Below the pieces are notes generated by a model. That model ran no database searches and was not told where the DNA came from. It worked only from the letters and a program-made list of their open reading frames with translations. Made by a program: the position numbers and the translations under genes. Positions 52,647 through 64,000 of a DNA stretch of 64,000 bases are shown here, piece by piece. Source of the DNA: Aeromicrobium sp. Leaf350 (GTDB lineage: Bacteria; Actinomycetota; Actinomycetes; Propionibacteriales; Nocardioidaceae); contig NZ_CAKASL010000002.1 in the NCBI RefSeq assembly GCF_916858655.1, positions 1-64,000 on the forward strand, written 5' to 3'. Position 1 is the stretch's first letter. Each line of letters opens with the position of its first letter.

Positions 52647-54557
52647 GTGGTCGTGGACATCTCCCGTCGTTCCGTGATCCAAGGAGGCGCCCTCGGCGCC
52701 GTCGTGCTGGTGGGGAGCCAGGTGCTGGGGCCGCTGGCCGCCCAGGCCGTCTCGCCCGCCCGGGTGAACGCGAAGCTCGCGCGGAGCACGCTCCAGTCGA
52801 CCTTCACCGTGACCCCGCCGAACGCCCGGGGATACCGCAACGTCGCGATCGCGGCACCCGACCCGCACCTCGTGCGCACCGAGCTCGGCGTCGCCGCCGG
52901 TTCGGGCCGCGCCGCCACGCGGGTGCACAAGGCGACCTTCGTGCAGCTCAGCGACGTGCACGTGGTCGACCACCAGTCCCCGGCGCGACTCGAGTGGTTC
53001 GACCGCTTCGACGACCCCGGCACGGCGGGCGCCCCCACGATCGGCCTGTTCAGCTCGGCCTACCGGCCGCAGGAGATCCTGTCGGCCCAGGTCGCCGACT
53101 CGATGGTGCGAGCCATCAACTCGCTCGGCTCCGGCCCCGTGCTCGGCACCCCGCTGCAGTTCGCGATCCAGACCGGCGACAACTCCGACAACAGCCAGCA
53201 GAACGAGATCCGCTGGAACATCGACATCCTCGACGGAGGGGCGATCACGCCCGACAGCGGCGACCCGAACCGGTACGAGGGCGTGGCCGACCAGGACCCG
53301 CTCACCTACGACACGCACTACTGGCACCCGGACGGGCCGCCTCCGGGCCGCGCGGACGACGACTACCGCGGCGACTTCGGCTACCCGACCGTGCCCGGCC
53401 TGCTCGACGCGGCGCGCAAGAAGTTCGACGCCGAGGGACTGTCGATCCCGTGGTACTCGGTGTTCGGCAACCACGACGGACTCGTCCAGGGCCTGTTCCC
53501 GTCGGGCACCGTGCCGTTCGGGCTCATCTCCACGGGCAACCTCAAGGTCATCTCGCCCCCGCTCGGCGTCTCGCAGGCGAACCTGCTGGATGCGGTGACG
53601 CGCGCTGACCTGGGCGTGCTGCTGGAGAGCCTGACGCTGGGGCTCGGGGCCCGCGTCGTCACGGCCGACCAGCGGCGCCGGCTGCTGACCCGCAAGCAGG
53701 TCGTGGAGGAGCACTTCGCGACGAGCGGAGCGCCCGTGGGGCACGGGTTCACGGCCCAGAACCGGACGTCCGGCACGGCGTACTACACCTTCGACAGCGG
53801 CGACGTCCGCATGGTCGTGATGGACACCGTCAACCCGAACGGGTACTCCGACGGCTCGCTCGACCAGGCCCAGCTCGCCTGGATCAAGCAGGTCATCGAC
53901 GCCACGACCGACAAGGCCGTCGTGCTGTTCAGCCATCACACCTCCGACACGATGGGCAACCCGCTGATCGGGCTCGGGGGCGACCTCGGGCCGCGGGTGC
54001 TCGGCGCGGACCTCGTGACCTACCTGCTCTCCAAGCCGCAGGTCATCGCCTGGGTCAACGGCCACACGCACACCAACCGCGTCATCCAGCACCCGTGTGC
54101 GGACGGCTCGGGCGGGTTCTGGGAGATCAACACGGCGGCGCACATCGACTTCCCGCAGCAGGCGCGGGTCATCGAGATCGCCGACAACCGCGACGGGACC
54201 TGGTCGATCTTCGGCACGCTCCTCGACCACGCGGCGCCGGCCGCCTTCGACGGCAACCTGGACGACCCGCTGTCGCTCGCGGCGCTCTCGCGCGAGCTCT
54301 CGGCCAACGACCCGCAGGCCGACCGCGACAAGTACCGGGGCGACGTCGCCTCCCGCAACGTCGAGCTGCTCGTGCAGCGCCCGCCAGGCGTGGGCACGAC
54401 GCCGGTCGTCGTGCCGGGCGTCGTCACCAACCCGACGCCGGCGCCCACCACCCCCGCGCCAGCACCGGCGGCGCCCGCCCCGCTCGCCGGCATCCAGGGC
54501 GTGCTGACCTCGCTGATCAACACGTTGACCGGAGGCCTGTTCGGCTTGCGGAGGTGA
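52647..54557 (+). CDS. TIGR03767-family metallophosphoesterase, Tat-exported
   Basis: A 636-residue protein exported by the Tat pathway: SRRSVIQGG near residues 6-14 is the twin-arginine motif, then a hydrophobic stretch. The calcineurin-like site is visible in [35 protein letters not shown] and NGHTHTN, in order. The C-terminus has a Pro/Ala/Thr-rich linker and a last hydrophobic segment (ITLTGGLFG-type), perhaps wall- or membrane-associated. It may release phosphate from extracellular organophosphates. Start is GTG at 52647 or at 52653. Confidence 0.88.
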
Positions 54558-54563
54558 CGTCTG

Positions 54564-54620
54564 CCGTTCCCTGAGGTGCGACGAGCTCTGCGAGGAGCCT
54601 CGAAGGGCCGGCGGGAACCG
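54564..54620. repeat. Palindromic repeat element, copy 1
   Basis: It shares CCCTGAGGTGCGACGAG and GAGGAGCCTCGAAGG with the element at 58403-58461. Outer arms GTTCCC/GGGAAC (54566-54571, 54613-54618) close a larger hairpin. It lies between convergent genes (phosphoesterase and the ABC fusion), so it may terminate both. Confidence 0.75.
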
Positions 54621-54626
54621 GAGCGG

Positions 54627-57263
54627 TCAGAGGCTGGCAGACCGCTCGGCGCGGCGACGGCGCTGCTCGACGGGGTCGGGCACGGGCACGGCGCCGATGA
54701 GGCGCTGCGTGTACTCCTCCTGCGGCGAGCCGAGGACGTCGGCGCGGGGGCCGACCTCGACGAGGCGGCCGTGCTGCAGCACCGCGACGCGGTTCGCGAG
54801 GGAGTCGACGACGGCGAGGTCGTGGCTGATGAACAGGCAGGCGAACTGCAGCCGTTCCTGGAGCTCGCGGAACACCTCGAGCACCCGCGCCTGCACCGAG
54901 ACGTCGAGCGCCGAGGTCGGCTCGTCGGCGATCAGCAGGTCCGGATCGAGGGCCAGCGCCCGCGCCAGCGACACGCGCTGACGCTGCCCGCCGGACAGCT
55001 CGTGCGGGAACCGGCCCTCGTAGTCGCCGGGCAGCTGGACGTCGTCGAGCAGCTGACGCACCTTGGCCCGGACCTCGCGCTCGGCGAGGTCGGTCTGCGT
55101 GCGCAACGGCTCGGCGAGGCAGTCGCCGACCGACATGCGGGGGTTGAGCGAGGCTGCCGGGTCCTGGAACACGAAGCCGAACTTCCTGCGCTGCGGCCGG
55201 AGCTTCGCGTCGCTCACGCCCGAGACCTGCTGGCCGGAGACCGAGACGGAGCCACTGGTCGGCTGCTGCAGACCGACCGTCGTGCGGCCGATCGTGGACT
55301 TGCCCGAGCCGGACTCGCCGACCAGGCCGAGCACCTCGCCGCGGCGCACCTGCAGCGAGACGTCGTCGACGGCGCGGAAGGTGGGGCGTCCGAAGCCACC
55401 CGGGAAGTCGACGACGAGCCGGTCGACGTCGAGCACGACCTCCGAGTCGACGACGGGGGAGGGGCCGTTCTCGCGTCCCAGGTGGGGCACGGCGTCCAGC
55501 AGGGCGCGCGTGTACGCATGGGCCGGCGCCGCGAAGAGGCGGTCGACGGGTGCCTGCTCGACGATCGAGCCCCGGTACATCACCACGACCCGGTCGGCGA
55601 CGTCGGCGACGACGCCCATGTTGTGCGTGATCAGCACGATCGCGGTGCCGAGGCGGTCGCGCAGCGACAGCAGGAGCTCGAGGATCGAGGCCTGCACCGT
55701 CACGTCGAGGGCCGTGGTCGGCTCGTCGGCGATGATCACGTCGGGGTCGCAGGCGATCGCCATCGCGATGACGACCCGCTGCTTCTGCCCGCCCGAGAGC
55801 TGGTGGGGGTAGTGGTCGACCCGCTCGGCCGGGTCGGGCATGCCGACCATCTCGAGCAGCTCGACCGCGCGCTTGCGGGCCTCGGCCACGGAGACGTCGC
55901 GGTGGGCGCGGATGCCCTCGACGATCTGCCAGCCGATCGTGCGGACGGGGTTGAGGGCGGTCGACGGCTCCTGGAAGACCATCGAGACCTCGTCGCCCCG
56001 CACCGAGCGGAGGTCGGACGCGCGGGCGCCGATCAGCTCGCGCGGCTCGTCGCCCGGCGTGGTCAGCACGGCCGACCCCTCGACGGTCGCGGTGTCGGGG
56101 AGCAGGCCCATCACGGCCCGCGAGCTGACCGACTTGCCGGAGCCGGACTCGCCCACGACGGCGACGACCTCGCCCGGGGCGACGTCGAAACCGATCTCGC
56201 GGACGGCGCGCACGGGTGCGCCGTCGGTGCGGAACGAGACCGACAGGTCGCGCAGCGACAGCACCGCCACGCGCTCGCCGTCGGCCGTGGCGCGTGCCTC
56301 CTGCACGGGGACGTCGTCGGCGACGAGCTCGGCCACCTCGTCGGCGTCGTTCTCGTCGCCGCCGCGCGTGCGGAGCAGCGGGTTGAGGATGTCGTTGAGG
56401 CTCTCGCCGACCAGCGTCACGCCCAGCACGATCAGGACGATCGCGAGACCGGGGAACGTGCCGGTCCACCAGATGCCGGAGGCGGCGTCGGGCAGGGCCT
56501 TGTTGAGGTCGTAGCCCCACTCGGCGGCGGCCGACGGCTCGATGCCGAAGCCCAGGAAGCCCAGTCCGGCCAGCGTCAGGATCGCCTCCGAGGCGTTGAG
56601 CGTCGCGATGACGGGCAGCGACTGCGAGACGTTCGAGAAGACGTGGCGGCCCAGGATGCGAGGCGTGCGGACGCCCGCGACCCGGGCGGCGTCGACGTAC
56701 GGCTCGGACTTCACCGCGAGGGTCGCGTTGCGCACGACGCGGTAGTACTGCGGCACGAAGACCACGGTGATCGACACCGCTGCGGCCAGGATGCCGCCGA
56801 ACGCGCTGCTCTGGCCGCCGGTGAGCACGATCGAGACGACGATCGCCAGCAGGAGCGACGGGAACGAGTAGAGCGCGTCCATGACGAGCACGAGGGTCCG
56901 GTCGAGCCAGCCGCCGAGGTAGCCCGAGACCAGGCCGAGGGGGACGCCGACGAGGCTCGAGAGCACGACCGCCAGCAGGATGACCTCGACGGCCGTGCGG
57001 GCCCCGAACACGACCCGCGAGAGCACGTCGTGGCCACCCACCGTCGTGCCGAACCAGTGCGCCGCGGACGGCGCCTGCTGCGTGCCGAACCGGACACCCT
57101 CCGCGTCGCGGACCGCGTCGAAGTCGTAGGGGGCGATCCACGGGGCGAAGACCGCCACGACGATGAACATCGCCATGAGGGCGAAGCCGAACAGCAGCAT
57201 GAACCGCTGGAGGCCGTGCGACTGGCGCACGACGGCAGGCACCCGCAGAGCCGTGATGCTCAT
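54627..57263 (-). CDS. Peptide ABC transporter fusion: DppC-type permease plus two ATPases
   Basis: One 878-residue chain holds three subunits normally separate. Residues 1-300 are a DppC/OppC permease (helices from about 20; EAA-like loop SEPYVDAARVAGVRTPRILGRHVF). Residues 330-590 are the first ATPase (Walker A GESGSGKS at 370-377, LSGGQ at 489-493). Residues 607-865 are the second (Walker A GESGSGKS at 650-657, LSGGQ at 756-760). A 30-residue Asp/Glu-rich linker at about 302-332 joins permease and ATPase. No stop or frameshift separates them. It pairs with the DppB-type permease, whose stop TGA overlaps this ATG by one base. Confidence 0.9.
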   Translation of the reverse strand: MSITALRVPAVVRQSHGLQRFMLLFGFALMAMFIVVAVFAPWIAPYDFDAVRDAEGVRFGTQQAPSAAHWFGTTVGGHDVLSRVVFGARTAVEVILLAVVLSSLVGVPLGLVSGYLGGWLDRTLVLVMDALYSFPSLLLAIVVSIVLTGGQSSAFGGILAAAVSITVVFVPQYYRVVRNATLAVKSEPYVDAARVAGVRTPRILGRHVFSNVSQSLPVIATLNASEAILTLAGLGFLGFGIEPSAAAEWGYDLNKALPDAASGIWWTGTFPGLAIVLIVLGVTLVGESLNDILNPLLRTRGGDENDADEVAELVADDVPVQEARATADGERVAVLSLRDLSVSFRTDGAPVRAVREIGFDVAPGEVVAVVGESGSGKSVSSRAVMGLLPDTATVEGSAVLTTPGDEPRELIGARASDLRSVRGDEVSMVFQEPSTALNPVRTIGWQIVEGIRAHRDVSVAEARKRAVELLEMVGMPDPAERVDHYPHQLSGGQKQRVVIAMAIACDPDVIIADEPTTALDVTVQASILELLLSLRDRLGTAIVLITHNMGVVADVADRVVVMYRGSIVEQAPVDRLFAAPAHAYTRALLDAVPHLGRENGPSPVVDSEVVLDVDRLVVDFPGGFGRPTFRAVDDVSLQVRRGEVLGLVGESGSGKSTIGRTTVGLQQPTSGSVSVSGQQVSGVSDAKLRPQRRKFGFVFQDPAASLNPRMSVGDCLAEPLRTQTDLAEREVRAKVRQLLDDVQLPGDYEGRFPHELSGGQRQRVSLARALALDPDLLIADEPTSALDVSVQARVLEVFRELQERLQFACLFISHDLAVVDSLANRVAVLQHGRLVEVGPRADVLGSPQEEYTQRLIGAVPVPDPVEQRRRRAERSASL

Positions 57264-58363
57264 CAGAACCTCACCCTCGGGTCGACGAGCGCGACGATGA
57301 CGTCGATCAGGAAGCTCGTGACGCCCACGATCAGGGCGATCAGCGTGACGATGCCCTGCACCGCGAGGAAGTCGCGGGCGACGAGGTACTCGGACAGCTC
57401 GTAGCCGATGCCTTTCCACTCGAAGGTCGTCTCGGTGAGGATCGCGCCGGCCAGGAGCATCGCGATCTGCATGCCCATCACGGTCACGACGGGCACCAGG
57501 GCCGTGCGGAAGGCGTGCTTGCGCACGACGCGCTTCTCCGACACGCCCCGAGCGCGCGCTGCGGTGACGTAGTCGGCGCGCAGCGTCTGCAGCAGGTTGA
57601 CCCGGACGAGGCGCAGGAACACGCCACCCGTCAGCAGGCCGAGGGCCACGGCCGGCAGCACCGCGTGCTGCAGCACGTCCAGGACCATGGCCGGGGAGCC
57701 GTGGAGGATCGCGTCGAGCAGCATGATGTGGGTCTCGCCCTCGGCGCGGGAGAGCGCGAGCTCGGTGGAGGTGCTGGCCCGGCCGGACGACGGCCAGCCG
57801 AAGGGCGTGAAGGCCAGCTTGAGCAGCAGGCCTACGAAGAAGACGGGTGCGGCGTAGACGAGGATCGCGCCCAGCCGGAGGACGACGTCCGGGAAGCGGT
57901 CGCGGTGACGGGCCGCGAGGCGGCCGAGCGGCACGCCCACCGCGAAGGCGACGATCAGCGCGTAGACCGTCAGCTCCAGCGTGGCTGCGCCGTTCTGCAC
58001 GAGGATGTCGGAGACCTCGCGGTTGTCGGTCAGGGTCGTGCCGAAGTCGCCCCGCAGGATGCCGCCGAGGTACTCGAAGTACTGGGTCAGCAGGGGGCGG
58101 TCGAGCCCGGCCTCGGCCTTGCGCTCCGCGATCTGGTCGGGCTGCAGCCGCCCGCCCTGCGCGGCCTGGATCGGGTCGCCGATGACGCGCATCAGGACGA
58201 AGACGAGGGTCACGAGCACCCACATCATCGGGATGATCAGCGCCAGCCGCACCAGGAGGTAGCGGGCCAGCGGGTTCAGGCGTCCGCGCCGCGGCGTCGA
58301 GTCGCTGGTGGGTGGCCCGGAGGAGGGAAGATCGGCCTGGCCGAGCACTTCGGCGGAGGACAT
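57263..58363 (-). CDS. Peptide ABC transporter permease (DppB type)
   Basis: A 366-residue permease with six helices. Its N-terminal 35 residues are polar. YLLVRLALIIPMMWVLVTLVFVLMRVIGDPI is the family start, and the EAA-like loop reads YVTAARARGVSEKRVVRKHAFRTALVP near 255-280. It imports di/oligopeptides or nickel-type ligands together with the fused permease-ATPase. It follows the binding-protein gene after a 107-bp gap containing a strong palindrome. Confidence 0.93.
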   Translation of the reverse strand: MSSAEVLGQADLPSSGPPTSDSTPRRGRLNPLARYLLVRLALIIPMMWVLVTLVFVLMRVIGDPIQAAQGGRLQPDQIAERKAEAGLDRPLLTQYFEYLGGILRGDFGTTLTDNREVSDILVQNGAATLELTVYALIVAFAVGVPLGRLAARHRDRFPDVVLRLGAILVYAAPVFFVGLLLKLAFTPFGWPSSGRASTSTELALSRAEGETHIMLLDAILHGSPAMVLDVLQHAVLPAVALGLLTGGVFLRLVRVNLLQTLRADYVTAARARGVSEKRVVRKHAFRTALVPVVTVMGMQIAMLLAGAILTETTFEWKGIGYELSEYLVARDFLAVQGIVTLIALIVGVTSFLIDVIVALVDPRVRF

Positions 58364-58402
58364 GGAGGTCGTCCCTTCTACGGGTGGTCGTGGCGCGGCC
58401 GA

Positions 58403-58461
58403 CCGGTCCCTGAGGTGCGACGAGGCACGAGGAGCCTCGAAGGTCGCACCTCAGGGACCGG
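58403..58461. repeat. Palindromic repeat element, copy 2 (between binding protein and permease genes)
   Basis: Perfect 19-bp arms (58403-58421 and 58443-58461) surround a loop that itself holds GAGGC/GCCTC. Sequence matches the copy at 54564-54620. In the operon it sits between the binding-protein stop and the permease start, where it could partially terminate transcription or protect the upstream mRNA, raising binding-protein output relative to the permease. Confidence 0.8.
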
Positions 58462-58470
58462 CGGGTTCGA

Positions 58471-60081
58471 CTACTGGGACAGCGACGTGAACCGGAACTT
58501 GAAGGACGCGTCGAGCGTGTCCTCGACCCCCTTCACGCCGTCGACCGCGATCGCGACCGACGTGCCGGTCAGCAGCGGCAGGAACGGCACCTGCTCGGCG
58601 AGGCGCGTCTGGATCTGGCCCAGGGTCGCCGCCCGCGTGGTCGGGTCGCCGTCGGTGCGCTCGGACTCCAGCAGGCTCGTCATCTCGGGGTCGGCGTACG
58701 GGGTGCCGTCCTCGTTGTAGTGCGAGTTGGTGAAGTTGCCGGCCTTGTCCTCGGAGTACGGCGCGAGGAACGGCGACAGGTAGTTGTCGGCGTCGGGGAA
58801 GTCCGGGAACCAGCCGAGCTGGAAGACCGGGTACGCGTCGGCCGGGAACTCCTCGGAGTAGGTGACCCACTCGGTCGACTGCAGGTTGACCGTGAAGAGG
58901 CCCGTGTCCTCGAGCTGCCGCTTGACCGCGTTGTACTCCTGGTCGGAGTTCGACCCGTAGTGGTCCGGGTTGTACTGCAGCTGGACCTCGACCGGCGTCG
59001 TGACGCCCGCGTCCGTCAGGTACTTCGTGGCCGCGTCGAGGTCGGGCTCGGCGCCGTAGAGCTCCTTGAAGGCCTCGGTCGCGCCGGTCTGACCCTCGGG
59101 AACCATCGACCACGCAGGCGTGTAGGTGCCCTGGTAGACGTCCTCGGACAGCTCGGCCCGGTCGACCGACGAGGCGACCGCCTGGCGCACGGCCAGCTTC
59201 TGCTCCGGCGTGCCGCCGGGCATCGTGTCGAGGTTGAAGACCATGTACCGCAGCTCGCCGCCGGCGCCGGTGTGCACCGTGACGCCGTCGGTCTTCTCGA
59301 GGTCGGCGATGTCGGTCGGCGTCAGCGAGCGGTACGCGACGTCGATCGACTTGTTCTCGATGTCGAGCTTGAGGTTCTCGGCCTTCGCGTAGTACTTCAG
59401 CGTCACGACGTCCTCGGCCGGGGCGTCGTAGGCGCCGTCGTAGTCGGGGTTGGCCGTGAACTCGGCGAGCTCGTTCTTGTCGTAGGACGAGATCGTGTAC
59501 GGGCCCGAGAAGCCGTTCGCCTCGACGGCGTCGTCGTCGGCGAGCACCTCGTCGGCGGGGTAGGTCTCCTCGTCGACGATCGGGCCGGCCGAGGTCACGA
59601 GGATCTGCGGGAACGTCTGGTCGTTCGGCGAGTTGAGCGTGAACGTCACGGTGGTGTCGTCGACGGCCTCGACCGAGGCCATGTTGCCGAGCAGCGAGGC
59701 CGGACCGTTCGGGTCGTTGATGTCGACGATGCGCTGGAACGAGAACGCGACGTCGGACGCCGTGAGCTCGTTGCCGTTGGCGAAGGTCAGCCCCGGCTTC
59801 AGGGTGCACGTGTAGACGGTCGGCTCGGTGAAGTCACAGGACTCCGCCGCGTCGGGGCTGAGGTCCGTCGAACCGGGCTGGAAGTTGAGCAGGTACTGGT
59901 ACACCTGCGTCTGCACGGTCGTCGAGCCGTTGTCGTACGACCCGGCCGGGTCGATCGAGACGACCTTGTCGGTCGTGCCGACGATCAGGCCGGTCGTCTC
60001 CTCGCCCGAACCGCAGGCGACGAGTGCGGCAGCTGAGACAGCCGTGGTCAACGCGATGGCAGCGCCTCGGCGCAACGTCAT
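58471..60081 (-). CDS. Peptide/nickel ABC transporter substrate-binding lipoprotein
   Basis: A 536-residue exported lipoprotein with a signal peptide (RRGAAIALTTAVSAAA) and lipobox AALVAC, Cys23. The mature part is a family-5 binding protein (LIVGTTDKVVSIDPAGSYDNGS; YTCTLKPGLTFANGNELTASDVAFSFQRI). It delivers oligopeptides or a similar ligand to the permeases encoded downstream. GAGGAG precedes the ATG. Transcription starts within the 163-bp gap to the divergent DUF5819 gene; TACGGT near 60134 is a possible -10. Confidence 0.93.
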   Translation of the reverse strand: MTLRRGAAIALTTAVSAAALVACGSGEETTGLIVGTTDKVVSIDPAGSYDNGSTTVQTQVYQYLLNFQPGSTDLSPDAAESCDFTEPTVYTCTLKPGLTFANGNELTASDVAFSFQRIVDINDPNGPASLLGNMASVEAVDDTTVTFTLNSPNDQTFPQILVTSAGPIVDEETYPADEVLADDDAVEANGFSGPYTISSYDKNELAEFTANPDYDGAYDAPAEDVVTLKYYAKAENLKLDIENKSIDVAYRSLTPTDIADLEKTDGVTVHTGAGGELRYMVFNLDTMPGGTPEQKLAVRQAVASSVDRAELSEDVYQGTYTPAWSMVPEGQTGATEAFKELYGAEPDLDAATKYLTDAGVTTPVEVQLQYNPDHYGSNSDQEYNAVKRQLEDTGLFTVNLQSTEWVTYSEEFPADAYPVFQLGWFPDFPDADNYLSPFLAPYSEDKAGNFTNSHYNEDGTPYADPEMTSLLESERTDGDPTTRAATLGQIQTRLAEQVPFLPLLTGTSVAIAVDGVKGVEDTLDASFKFRFTSLSQ

Positions 60082-60232: not shown

Positions 60233-60244
60233 TAGAGTGGCCCG
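60233..60244 (+). promoter_or_regulatory. Leaderless promoter of DUF5819 gene
   Basis: TAGAGT at 60233-60238 is six bases before the GTG at 60245. A good -35 was not seen. Confidence 0.45.
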
Positions 60245-61000
60245 GTGTCGACCGAGCCCTCCGCGCCGCAGCGCCGCTCGCGCGTGCGCACCGTGGTGGT
60301 CGTCCTCGTGGCGCTCGCGGCCTGCGTGCAGCTGTTCGGCGTCACCTTCATCTCGATCCCGCCCCAGTCCGCCCCGCCGGGCACCCGGTCCGCTGCCGAG
60401 GTGGTGCTCCACTCCTACTTCGAGGAGGAGTGGAAGCTCTTCGCCCCCAGCCCGGTCAACGCCGACCGCGACCTGATGGTGCAGGCCGCGTGGCGCGAGG
60501 GCGAGACGGTCGAGGTGGGGGAGTGGATCAACCTCACGGCGATCGACGACTCCGTCGTGCAGCACGCGGTCGGGGCACCGCGTTCGGCCTACCTCACGTC
60601 GCGACTGGCCGGCGGGCTCGACGCGGTGTGGTCGAACGTCACCGGCGAGATCCGCACCGCGGTGGCCGACGCCTCGAGCGAGACCGCCCCCCTCACGGAC
60701 GCCGACGTCCGCGACCTGCTGGGGGAGGAGGACGTGACGGGGCTCGCGCGTGACCTCATCGCCGAGCGGGACCTCGGAGCGACCACCTACCTGACCGACG
60801 TCTTCCGCTCGCTGGAGCCTGACCGCGAGCTCGTGGCCGTCCGGTACGGCACGCGACTGTCGACGGCGCCGACCTGGGAGCTGCGGCACGATGCCGAGAA
60901 GTCGGTGGGTGCGGTGACCGAGGGTCCCTGGCGGACCCCGGTCGAGGACGACCCGGACCGACGCCGGAGCATCGCCGACTACCTGGAGCGGAACTCGTGA
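60245..61000 (+). CDS. DUF5819-family membrane-anchored protein
   Basis: A 251-residue protein: short basic N-terminus, one transmembrane helix at about residues 14-36 (VRTVVVVLVALAACVQLFGV), then an extracytoplasmic domain starting VLHSYFEEEWKLFAPSPVNADRDLMVQAAW, the DUF5819 signature (Y-F-W-FAP). No catalytic motif is visible. Its ATGA-type overlap (4 bp) with the following HTTM gene shows a shared transcript. The family is regularly associated with HTTM proteins; function unknown. Start GTG is supported by the TAGAGT box. Confidence 0.8.
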   Translation: MSTEPSAPQRRSRVRTVVVVLVALAACVQLFGVTFISIPPQSAPPGTRSAAEVVLHSYFEEEWKLFAPSPVNADRDLMVQAAWREGETVEVGEWINLTAIDDSVVQHAVGAPRSAYLTSRLAGGLDAVWSNVTGEIRTAVADASSETAPLTDADVRDLLGEEDVTGLARDLIAERDLGATTYLTDVFRSLEPDRELVAVRYGTRLSTAPTWELRHDAEKSVGAVTEGPWRTPVEDDPDRRRSIADYLERNS

Positions 61001-61986
61001 CGTCGCCGGCCGCGACGGTCGCCACGAGCGTCGACCGCCTCGTCGACTGGCTCACGACCTCGCGGTGGTCGACGTTCGGGCTGGCGGCGACGCGCATGAC
61101 GATCGCGTTCACGATCCTGGTGCAGCTGGCCGTCGGGTTCGCCGACCGTCAGTACATCTGGGGCGTGGGCCACCGGTGGGCCGAGCCGTTCCACGAGCGC
61201 CAGGCCGTCGTCACGTGGATCCCGTGGCTGCCGGCAGCCCCCGCGTGGGCGACGGACGTGGCGCTGCTCGCGTCCGTGGTGGCCGGCGTCGCGCTCCTCG
61301 TCGGATGGCACACCCGCACCGCCTGCATCGCGACGTTCCTGCTCTGGGCCCTGATGATCGACGCGTCGCCGATCCTGCGGTCGGGGGCGGAGGACGTCGT
61401 CCGGCTGGTGCTCTTCTACCTCTGCTTCAGCGACAGCGGTGTGGTGGCCTCCCTGGACGCCCGCCGGAGACGGCGCAAGGACCGGGGGGAGCCTCGACAC
61501 GACTGGCTCGCGATCCTGCTCAACAACGTGGCGGTCGTGCTGATCGCCCACCAGATCGTCATGATCTACGTCGGTTCGGCCCTGTGGAAGTTCGACGGCC
61601 CCGCCTGGCTCGACGGCACCGCGGTCTACTACCCGCTGCAGGTCAACCAGTACTCGCCGTGGCTCGCCGAGCTCGACTGGCTCTACACCTGGTCGCCGTT
61701 CGTGATGGGCGCGACGTGGAGCGCGATGATCATCCAGCTCGGGTTCCCGCTGCTCCTGCTGACCCGGCGGACCCGCATCATCGGCTTCGTCCTGATCACC
61801 GGCACCCACCTCGGAATCGGGGTCCTGATGGGACTCATGTACTTCTCGCTCGCGATGATCGCGGCCGACGCGGTGCTGATCAGCGACGACACCTGGCGCA
61901 GCGCCGCCAGGAATTTCCGCGACCGCAGGAACAGGTGGGTGAGGCGCGCGCCTCAGGCGGGAGAGGGACTTGAGTCTGTGACCTAG
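60997..61986 (+). CDS. HTTM (vitamin K-dependent carboxylase-like) membrane protein
   Basis: A 329-residue protein with about eight predicted helices, matching the HTTM fold of gamma-glutamyl carboxylases. IGSALWKFDGPAWLDGTAVYY-type segment near 185-205 contains a Lys that appears to align with the catalytic base Lys218 of human GGCX, though this needs an alignment. GVALLVGWHTRTACIATF and ASPILRSGAEDVVRLVLFYL are other family segments. It is coupled to the DUF5819 gene and precedes an LPXTG protein. A membrane modification enzyme is suggested; chemistry and substrate are inference. Confidence 0.78.
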   Translation: MTSPAATVATSVDRLVDWLTTSRWSTFGLAATRMTIAFTILVQLAVGFADRQYIWGVGHRWAEPFHERQAVVTWIPWLPAAPAWATDVALLASVVAGVALLVGWHTRTACIATFLLWALMIDASPILRSGAEDVVRLVLFYLCFSDSGVVASLDARRRRRKDRGEPRHDWLAILLNNVAVVLIAHQIVMIYVGSALWKFDGPAWLDGTAVYYPLQVNQYSPWLAELDWLYTWSPFVMGATWSAMIIQLGFPLLLLTRRTRIIGFVLITGTHLGIGVLMGLMYFSLAMIAADAVLISDDTWRSAARNFRDRRNRWVRRAPQAGEGLESVT

Positions 61987-62145
61987 CCCACAGGACCGCG
62001 TTCCGGACGGGTATTAAGTCCTCCTGAGAATGTGGTTAACTGTCGATCGGACATCGCCAGTCCGAACGGACTAGTGCTGCCAACCGGGCGGGAACTCCCT
62101 GCCTCCCCCCGACCGCCCGTAAGAACTTACGAGGAGCTCTCTCGA
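61987..62145 (+). promoter_or_regulatory. Upstream region of LPXTG protein gene
   Basis: A 159-bp gap. Inverted repeats AGTCC-N4-GGACT (about 62059-62072) and GTAAG-AA-CTTAC (62119-62130) lie in it, the latter just before the GAGGAG Shine-Dalgarno. TTAAGT/TTAACT boxes near 62014 and 62036 are weak promoter candidates. Whether the leader is a riboswitch-like structure is not known; no known class was recognised. Confidence 0.35.
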
Positions 62146-63765
62146 ATGAAGCACATCGGCAAGAAGGTGATCGGAGTCGGCGTCGCGACGCTGCTCGTCA
62201 CCTCCGTGGCCAGCCTGAACGCAGGCGCCGCCCTCAAGACTGACTACAAGTCCTCCGCCGAGGCGACCTACATCTCCGCCTCGGGGGTGCTGCTCGGCAG
62301 CGCGCTGGTCGATCCTCTGGCTCGCCTCCTGGAGCGCCAGGGCACCGAGCAGGAGCTCGCCGCCGCCCAGGCCAAGGTCGACACGAAGGCCGGCACGCCC
62401 GCGACCGACGGTCCCGACTACTCCAACGGTGTCCTCGACCCGCTGAAGACGCTGACGAACGGCCTGGGCAACCAGCTGCTGGGCTCGCGGATCGGCGCCG
62501 TCGGCACCTACGCCTTCGCGAACCAGGACGCCTCGAAGGCCGCCTCGGGTGCGGTCACGAGCGACGGCATCGTGCAGGCCGGTGGCGGTAACGCCCCGCC
62601 CTCGAACGCGACCCTGAACCTCACCGGTCCGGGCAGCCCGCTCGCCGCGCTGAACGGCATCGTCAACGCCGAGCTGAGCCTGGGCGCCCTCGCGTCCAGC
62701 ACCGAGCTCGCCGCGGGCGCTCCGAACGCGCCGCTGCGTGACGTCACCGTCGCGGGTGGCAGCCTCAACATCAACGTCGGTCAGACGCTGCTCGCGCCGA
62801 TCACGGCGCTCCTGCAGCCGGTCATCGACCTCGGCAACAACCCCGTCGTCGGCGGACTCATCACGGGTGTCCCGGAGCTCCTCACCGCCGTCAGCACCCT
62901 GACCGGCAACGGCCTGACGATCAACCTGCAGACCGGTGACATCACGGTCGACCTCAACGCCGTCGTCAAGCTCGCCACGGGTTACGACCTCGACCAGCTC
63001 GAGGACCAGCCGGACGTGCTCCAGTCGCTCGGCTACGACTTCACCCGCACGGGCAACAAGGCGCACAACATCCAGATCCTCCCGATCGTGGTGGACGGTG
63101 TCGTGCAGCAGCTCGGCGCACTCGTCGCCGGTCTCGGCACCAATCTCAACGCCGGTCTGCAGAACCTGACCGTGCTCGGTGTGCCGCTCGGACAGCTCCT
63201 GGCCGTTCCGGTCGTCGGCGGCATCATCGCCCCGGTGCTCGACGCCGCAGGCACCGCCATCCAGGGTCTCGGTGCCTCGCTGAGCACCGCGCTCATCCAG
63301 CCGCTGTTCTCGGCGCTGGAGCCGCTGGTCGACATCCGCACCAACGTGTGGGAGACCGATCCGGGCAGCTACCGCGAGGCCGTCGCGGCTCGCACGGGCA
63401 CGCAGGGCGTGTTCTCGACGACCGCGCTGCGGGTCACGGTCCTCTCGGCCGTCGGTTCCGCGCCGGCGCTGGCGATCAACCTCGCCAACACGCTGGTGGG
63501 TCCGAACTCGGCCGTCACGACCGACGACCAGACCAACACCAACGCGAACGCTCCGGCGAACGCCCCGGCCAACGCGAACGCTCCGGCGAACGCCAACGCC
63601 AACCTGAACGGCAACGGCGGTCTGGCCGACAAGTCGGTCGACACCCTGCCGAGCACCGGTGCGTCGAACCTGTGGCCCTTCTGGCTGCTGGGTCTGCTCC
63701 TGGTGGCCCTGGGTGCCGCGGCGATGATCAACGAGAAGCGCCGCGAGTCGGCACTGCTCGCCTGA
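62146..63765 (+). CDS. LPXTG-anchored surface protein, choice-of-anchor-G-like
   Basis: A 539-residue secreted protein. Signal peptide MKHIGKKVIGVGVATLLVTSVASLNAGA is followed by SAEATYISASGVLLGSALVDPLARL, as in choice-of-anchor G proteins. The body is rich in short hydrophobic beta-strand repeats (LGLGTNLNAGLQ, GVPLGQLLAVPVVG). An Asn/Ala/Pro-rich spacer (about 460-490) precedes LPSTG (501-505), a helix and a basic tail, the sortase signal. It is probably displayed on the wall. No sortase is in the window. Binding partner or function unknown; it is flanked by DUF5819/HTTM genes. Confidence 0.85.
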   Translation: MKHIGKKVIGVGVATLLVTSVASLNAGAALKTDYKSSAEATYISASGVLLGSALVDPLARLLERQGTEQELAAAQAKVDTKAGTPATDGPDYSNGVLDPLKTLTNGLGNQLLGSRIGAVGTYAFANQDASKAASGAVTSDGIVQAGGGNAPPSNATLNLTGPGSPLAALNGIVNAELSLGALASSTELAAGAPNAPLRDVTVAGGSLNINVGQTLLAPITALLQPVIDLGNNPVVGGLITGVPELLTAVSTLTGNGLTINLQTGDITVDLNAVVKLATGYDLDQLEDQPDVLQSLGYDFTRTGNKAHNIQILPIVVDGVVQQLGALVAGLGTNLNAGLQNLTVLGVPLGQLLAVPVVGGIIAPVLDAAGTAIQGLGASLSTALIQPLFSALEPLVDIRTNVWETDPGSYREAVAARTGTQGVFSTTALRVTVLSAVGSAPALAINLANTLVGPNSAVTTDDQTNTNANAPANAPANANAPANANANLNGNGGLADKSVDTLPSTGASNLWPFWLLGLLLVALGAAAMINEKRRESALLA

Positions 63766-63780
63766 TCAGCGACGACTGAA

Positions 63781-63814
63781 CGGATGCCGGTGACGCACGC
63801 GTCACCGGCATCCG
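63781..63814 (+). terminator. Hairpin after LPXTG gene
   Basis: A perfect 15-bp stem CGGATGCCGGTGACG/CGTCACCGGCATCCG with a 4-base loop, 15 bp after the stop codon. Followed by TCATGT, without a T run. Confidence 0.75.
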
Positions 63815-63843
63815 TCATGTCCGGGGTCCGCCCGCACTCGACC

Positions 63844-63856
63844 TAGGATGAGGTCC
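63844..63856 (+). promoter_or_regulatory. Leaderless promoter of last gene
   Basis: TAGGAT at 63844-63849 is seven bases before the ATG at 63857. GAGG within the gap could instead act as a Shine-Dalgarno. Confidence 0.4.
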
Positions 63857-64000
63857 ATGTCCGCCACCACCGCCGAGGTCTCCGTGACACGGTGGCAGAG
63901 CGGACTCATGCTGACGATTGCGCTCGTCGTGATCGTGCACTCCGCGGTCGTCGGACTGTGGCTCAGCCCCGTCAGTCCGATCCGCGACAGCGTCGGCAGC
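63857..64000 (+). CDS. Second DUF5819-like membrane-anchored protein (3' end outside window)
   Basis: Only the first 48 residues are visible: polar start, a helix at about 15-38 (LMLTIALVVIVHSAVVGLWL), then SPVSPIRDSVGS. This is the layout of the DUF5819 N-terminus upstream (helix, then a Pro/Ser stretch before the conserved Y-F-W-FAP part), but the conserved part falls beyond the edge, so assignment is tentative. Confidence 0.6.
   Translation, partial: MSATTAEVSVTRWQSGLMLTIALVVIVHSAVVGLWLSPVSPIRDSVGS

Follow-up and report, generated by a model that had tools for sequence, protein, structure and literature searches.

A tandem DUF5819-HTTM cassette in Aeromicrobium sp. Leaf350: a candidate GGCX-related system for modification of surface protein stalks

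Here, we present an analysis of a tandem DUF5819-HTTM cassette at the right end of the window, i.e., bases 1 to 64000 of contig C2 in the 3.5 Mb genome of Aeromicrobium sp. Leaf350. Reading the genome past the window end, we found that one surface protein gene is enclosed by two DUF5819-HTTM pairs; the cassette order is DUF5819-HTTM, choice-of-anchor-G LPXTG protein, DUF5819-HTTM, with the second HTTM gene located right of base 64000. Three computed results carry our interpretation: (i) the linkage of the DUF5819 and HTTM genes, which is far above chance; (ii) the equivalence of a conserved Lys residue in HTTM and the catalytic base of GGCX; and (iii) the tie between the gene pair and surface proteins with a low-complexity stalk. 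Altogether, we suggest that HTTM and DUF5819 may form a membrane-embedded enzyme of the GGCX/SdpB type that introduces a modification into the stalks of surface proteins after their export, and we put the probability of this reading at slightly below one half (~0.47).

Results

The two DUF5819-HTTM pairs and the enclosed surface protein

A sequence-only reading of the window had described a DUF5819 gene translationally coupled to an HTTM gene, followed by an LPXTG protein resembling choice-of-anchor-G proteins and by what looked like another DUF5819 gene. These assignments hold. DUF5819 copy 1 (60245 to 61000, plus strand; PF19136, E value 2e-16, 61.5 bits), with a predicted N-terminal membrane helix and outside domain, and HTTM copy 1 (60997 to 61986, plus strand; PF05090, E value 3.4e-11, 43.7 bits) have reading frames that share 4 bases. 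DUF5819 copy 2 starts within the window (63857 to 64000, continuing to C2 64606, plus strand; E value 3.3e-24, 86.8 bits), and HTTM copy 2 is found outside it (C2 64599 to 65741, plus strand; E value 1.1e-12, 48.6 bits). All four scores are above the curated cut-offs of 27.1 bits for PF19136 and 27.7 bits for PF05090, and the two HTTM matches are the only ones in this genome.

The gene between the two pairs (62146 to 63765, plus strand) encodes a choice-of-anchor-G surface protein of 539 residues (NF033766, 52.6 bits; cut-off 45), which is likely the substrate at this locus. Its C terminus has the features of a sortase-anchored protein, i.e., an LPXTG motif, a membrane helix and a basic tail: the LPSTG sorting motif (63646 to 63660, plus strand) is located at residue 501, the hydrophobic stretch at residues 510 to 528, and the tail reads NEKRRESALLA. 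The anchor model TIGR01167 gave 19.1 bits in one search and 13.4 bits in another (cut-off 15.9). Ahead of the anchor is the Asn/Ala/Pro stalk repeat TNTNANAPANAPANANAPANANANLNGNGG (63532 to 63621, plus strand; low-entropy run of 45 residues), a NANAPA stalk of about 30 residues almost without Glu or Asp.

Conservation and spread of the pair

The sequence-only reading had proposed that co-occurrence be counted across genomes, and this count shows that the DUF5819-HTTM linkage is conserved and the linkage to a surface protein frequent. The loci examined were collected by searches for DUF5819, HTTM and choice_anch_G, and the set is therefore not a random sample. Wherever DUF5819 occurs in these loci, HTTM is located directly 3' of it on the same strand (157 of 157 DUF5819 matches, corresponding to 156 distinct HTTMs because one L240 gene is split into two matches). 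Rows repeating stretches of L048, L046, L101 and L227 were excluded, namely L114, L115, L183 and L153 (L153 in the final count). Among 163 HTTM matches, six are unpaired; they comprise fragments (L045, L157), HTTMs with SdpA-like neighbors (L105, L107) and HTTMs next to weak DUF5819 matches (L104, L108).

DUF5819 is present in 10 of 100 genomes of the family and in 8 of the 16 genomes examined of the genus; in all eight, the order DUF5819-HTTM-surface protein-DUF5819-HTTM is kept. Two genes on the opposite strand, by eye encoding an MFS transporter and an M13 peptidase, lie 3' of the tandem cassette in the eight genomes. As for the enclosed surface proteins, a pattern match shows a terminal LPXTG-type motif in seven of them, and the eighth has LPDAG. 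At the level of the phylum, 21 of 296 genomes match DUF5819 at an E value of 0.001, with 17 above the cut-off. Windows with more than three X were left out of the analysis. A scan of named genomes with an HTTM alignment, which took 80 of 232 confirmed places, covered the genera Aeromicrobium, Brevibacterium, Microbacterium, Oerskovia, Leucobacter, Sediminivirga, Subtercola, Ruania, Microlunatus and others.

Single-pair loci also occur. In L046 to L049, the gene for an LPXTG protein that we refer to as type B is followed by DUF5819, HTTM and two small lipoprotein-like genes; the latter two are kept in order, and those of L049 have no Pfam match. The idea that type B proteins are remote choice_anch_G members was rejected (hhalign probability 0.1).

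Comparison of HTTM with GGCX

According to the available text of PMC12589487, K218 of GGCX takes a proton from vitamin K hydroquinone, the quinone pocket includes W223, F286, F294, F299 and H160, and the Glu side chain is held by N159, H160 and Y395. When a profile of 18 HTTMs was compared with the PDB, GGCX sequences alone matched (E values from 5e-15 to 3e-13; next row 0.88). With numbering counted from the printed profile alignment, K198, W204, H271 and F283 of HTTM copy 1 align with K218, W223, H287 and F299 of GGCX. K198 (codon 61588 to 61590, plus strand) is the Lys in LWKFDGPAW, so that the match to K218 proposed in the sequence-only reading is confirmed by the profile alignment (E value 5e-15). 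Loss of this Lys in the aligned family had been named as a sign against the idea; instead, 156 of 160 HTTMs have Lys at this position (Arg in two, a gap in two). The column of W204 contains Trp in 158 HTTMs and a gap in two, that of H271 contains His in 150, Asn in nine and a gap in one, and the counterpart of F299 is Phe in 149. The likeness concerns the transmembrane domain; GGCX differs in having a fused lumenal domain, which is absent from HTTM, while DUF5819 is a separate protein, and in the region of H160. HTTM retains the base of GGCX and appears to retain part of its quinone pocket, but it does not retain the Glu pocket.

DUF5819

DUF5819 copy 1 has one strong hydrophobic stretch (residues 18 to 36) followed by a predicted alpha/beta part (predicted local distance difference test [pLDDT] 85.6 and predicted template modeling score 0.70), in agreement with the single helix and outside domain read earlier from the sequence. 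The conserved residues cluster in the segment F-x-Q-x-W-x-x-F-A-P-x-P, together with some Arg residues. No PDB fold stands out in comparison with the model (best Foldseek E value 0.068; VIA Z at most 3.4), and GGCX is absent among the matches listed; these comparisons lend no support to the idea that DUF5819 duplicates the lumenal domain of GGCX, and we dropped it. Likewise, we dropped the idea that DUF5819 is SdpA proper, as neither copy matches an NCBIfam family at E values up to 10. The SdpA model TIGR04034 has no match in the window's own genome, and the DUF5819 profile matches two true SdpA proteins marginally (probability 5, E value 0.007). Short HTTM-linked proteins in L103, L105, L106 and L107 match DUF5819 over 62 columns (probability 96, E value 3e-9) and have the F-x-Q-x-W-x-x-F-A-P-x-P segment in common with it. 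Two such pairs of an SdpA-like protein and HTTM (L103:8959-10020 and L107:7532-8536), from other classes of the phylum, also adjoin genes for surface-like proteins, which have a helix at the C terminus and repeats of KKQPA or DDGTDDGQ. We found no mention of DUF5819 in the literature searched, which was mostly without subscription papers.

Stalks of surface proteins beside the pair

On reading, the neighbors of the pairs differ in their folded parts but resemble one another in their low-complexity stalk. By inspection, the stalks are of the types (GTEVD)n, (GVEVD)n, (VDAD)n, (DA)n, DDDAAA and Ala-rich blocks with D/S/N/T, as well as (QA)n, NANAPA, GTDNS, VDQTG, TTGN and TTTPG. No residue is common to all of them, and the chemistry cannot be read from stalk composition. 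Stalks beside pairs are found on unrelated folds, including Ice_binding (L097, L098), DUF6923/DUF7507/DUF11 (L188), SdrD_B (L176) and the type B proteins. In the Streptomyces-like loci L097 (7946-8935) and L098 (7741-8991), the Ice-binding-like proteins (PF11999) have (TTG)n or (NTTG)n tails and are encoded upstream of secondary pairs.

We counted stalks in the choice_anch_G family, using loci from searches independent of DUF5819 in addition to those from the DUF5819 and HTTM searches, and defining a stalk as a low-entropy run (2.6 bits) of at least 40 residues with less than 15% Pro. Under a first criterion (2.3 bits, 30 residues), a stalk was assigned to 49 of 55 proteins by a pair and to 13 of 25 others; this criterion overlooked (GTEVD)n, which has an entropy of 2.32 bits. 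The HMMER filters were switched off since they dropped repeat-rich proteins, giving 67 of 67 beside pairs and 11 of 27 elsewhere with a doubled contig still included. In the final count, from which two choice_anch_G places (G483:C332 and G557:C38) are excluded, all 65 choice_anch_G proteins encoded no more than 3 kb from a pair have a Pro-poor low-entropy run of at least 40 residues, as do all 56 located off contig edges (median 129). Farther from a pair, 11 of 27 reach this number (9 of 20 off contig edges). By inspection of these 11, seven have D/E-type repeats and come from genomes that encode DUF5819 at another place (G403, three in G549, G565, G498 and G573), three are hydrophobic runs inside the folded part (L231, L234, L260) and one is a Gly/Asn-rich linker (L258). 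In the 10 of 21 tested genomes that lack DUF5819, none of the 16 choice_anch_G rows has such repeats by inspection (two rows are fragments of one frame); instead, these proteins have no linker, a Pro-rich linker (L050, L232, L235) or a Gly-rich one. In genome G669, the choice_anch_G protein by the pair has a stalk of ~300 residues and the other copy has none. Similarly, in the genome of the window, the remaining nine LPXTG proteins have no stalk run in the 450 residues before the anchor.

Based on these counts, the LPXTG protein of the window, which had been thought not necessarily to be the substrate, now appears to be the likeliest substrate at this locus. The predicted fold of the choice_anch_G domain was not used (pLDDT 47). 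In the literature searched, we found no link of choice-of-anchor-G proteins to DUF5819-HTTM or to repeat stalks.

Surroundings of the cassette

A perfect hairpin (63780 to 63815, from a self-match on the opposite strand) is located in the gap between the surface protein gene and the second pair, with a fold of -38 kcal/mol over 60 bases. It is possibly a terminator without a T run; a promoter and terminator scan called none, this hairpin included. Left of the cassette are oligopeptide-type ABC transporter genes on the minus strand (54517 to 60081; solute-binding protein and permease tested).

Discussion

Our findings suggest that a two-gene, GGCX-related membrane enzyme, found in many actinobacteria and often adjoining surface proteins with long repetitive stalks, may modify these stalks. 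In the mechanism that we propose, HTTM would be the catalytic subunit, in which the conserved Lys and the retained part of the quinone pocket activate a reduced quinone (here menaquinol), allowing a proton to be removed from a residue of the substrate. DUF5819, anchored by one helix and with its domain outside the cell, would grip the substrate and thereby replace the propeptide-binding lumenal domain that is fused in GGCX. At the window locus, the substrate would be the low-complexity stalk of the surface protein that the two pairs enclose. The modification would take place once the protein has been exported, either ahead of or during its anchoring by sortase. Of this picture, the linkage, the Lys equivalence and the tie to stalks are computed results; catalysis, quinone use, topology, timing and the stalk as the site of modification are inferred. 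Because the residues of the stalks vary without a common side chain while the base is constant, we favor a tolerant or backbone-directed reaction, e.g., Calpha epimerization, over strict Glu carboxylation, but this is a guess to which we give low odds. We consider it somewhat doubtful that the full picture applies, in which a widespread, quinone-driven actinobacterial enzyme that has the GGCX fold and a distinct extracellular subunit modifies the low-complexity stalks of cell-wall-anchored proteins. The product is possibly independent of side chains, e.g., D-residues by which a disordered stalk would be protected. Such a system would be the bacterial equivalent of vitamin K-dependent modification of proteins, and its substrates would form a new class.

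The sequence-only reading regarded the locus as a candidate for an undescribed system, and this is correct in part, as the nearest described relatives are SdpA/SdpB and linaridin HTTM proteins. Like SdpA/SdpB (TIGR04034 and TIGR04033), which belong to the toxin-producing SDP system of Bacillus, DUF5819-HTTM is a two-gene unit of a small protein followed by an HTTM protein. The two HTTMs of the cassette match SdpB (TIGR04033) with E values of 4.6e-17 and 3.2e-8; however, their 62.5 and 33.5 bits are below the cut-off of 178.4. Most partnered loci run substrate-DUF5819-HTTM, as in SdpC-SdpA-SdpB, while the substrate in the DUF5819 system would be a large anchored surface protein. True SdpA genes (TIGR04034 above cut-off) are present in two actinobacterial genomes in C-A-B order, with SdpC assigned by eye (L111, L112). 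In the linaridin cluster of corynaridin, the HTTM gene crdG is found beside a secreted peptide substrate and is assumed to have a role in maturation, by an exact mechanism that the available text of the source calls unclear (PMC9927463); this system, compared here by its description, makes a small peptide antibiotic and lacks DUF5819. No paper naming SdpB and HTTM together was found in the literature searched, for the most part without subscription papers.

Several observations weigh against stalk modification by the pair as a general function. By strict count, a stalk protein is present within 1 kb of 87 of the 156 pairs and absent for 69. Some of these 69 are misses of the count (the window's own locus L006, L044, L097, L098 and second tandem pairs). 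However, all 11 Streptomyces-like main copies (L086 to L096) lack an adjoining stalk protein, and their neighbors are unremarkable, being members of the SpoU methylase and aldehyde dehydrogenase families in the case of L086. The same is the case for 25 Brevibacterium loci within L116 to L191, in which the upstream gene, where read (L116, L123, L135), is CoA transferase-like; Brevibacterium sediminis and B. oceani each have partnerless pairs as well as pairs beside a stalk protein (L135, L144, L160; L155, L157, L173). Therefore, the stalk is not the adjacent substrate everywhere. Moreover, the stalk cut-off was changed once after the data had been seen. In a choice_anch_G tree of 71 domains made by a quick method, the six independent contrasts on supported branches comprise four that agree, none that oppose and two without a difference (p = 0.125); these contrasts are too few for the tree to serve as proof, and while the count that ties the pair to stalks is strong, the independent evolutionary evidence is modest. 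In the HTTM sequences, the region of GGCX N158-N159-H160 reads mostly D-Q-G then D-N, with His in 1 of 160, F294 is mostly Met (132 of 160) and F286 is partially conserved (Phe in just 69 of 160). Asn replaces His271 in all nine second HTTMs of tandem cassettes in the genus group of the window (C2 64599-65741; L038 to L044, L167) and, for this reason, the second HTTM may be a specialized or inactive partner of the first copy. Finally, according to the available text of PMC10373908, the proposed epimerase of linaridins is grmL and not the HTTM gene.

In the sequence-only reading, HTTM carboxylates or otherwise modifies a surface protein. The linkage and the conservation of the Lys agree with modification as such, whereas carboxylation fares less well. 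Bacterial gamma-carboxylation of stalk Glu, and perhaps Asp, residues to generate a calcium-binding surface would fit the conserved counterpart of K218 and the many acidic stalks, i.e., (GTEVD)n, (VDAD)n, (DA)n and DDDAAA. However, N159 and H160, which hold Glu in GGCX, are not conserved, leaving Glu carboxylation by HTTM unproven, and almost no Glu or Asp is present in the stalks of the window (NANAPA), L043 (QA)n, L046 (TTGN)n and L190 (TTTPG)n, making this reaction unlikely in our view. The pair could also be a non-catalytic helper by which disordered proteins rich in repeats are exported, folded or anchored. In favor of this idea, the pair is tied to low complexity and not to a particular residue, and DUF5819 resembles no known fold. 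However, the catalytic Lys and Trp are nearly invariant, for which a helper alone would have no need, and we consider this explanation improbable.

The relation to SdpB raises the possibility that the pair is required for the release of a toxin or signal peptide from the surface protein rather than for stalk decoration. SdpB is the nearest NCBIfam model to HTTM, the gene order matches that of the SdpC-SdpA-SdpB loci L111 and L112, and processing of SdpC requires SdpA and SdpB as described in the available text of PMC6818787. Yet, the partners are mostly large proteins with a sorting motif, the window protein matches no SdpC family in NCBIfam, and the part that the partners share is the repeat stalk, arguing that such processing is distinctly improbable. 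Alternatively, a few lineages could have inherited pair and stalk jointly without a functional tie. Just four informative independent contrasts (p = 0.125) speak for this idea; nevertheless, similar stalks are found beside unrelated folded parts, and contrasts occur inside one genus and inside one genome, with none in the opposite direction. We regard shared ancestry alone as highly improbable.

Stalk modification by HTTM and DUF5819 thus remains our preferred reading, and we conclude that the cassette is a variant of the HTTM-based maturation systems with a testable substrate. Because the candidate substrates beside the enzyme are large, anchored and repetitive, mass spectrometry of stalk peptides could reveal a reaction. 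If the reading is correct, DUF5819 would be given a role, and the maturation of surface proteins in bacteria would be tied to vitamin K-type chemistry.

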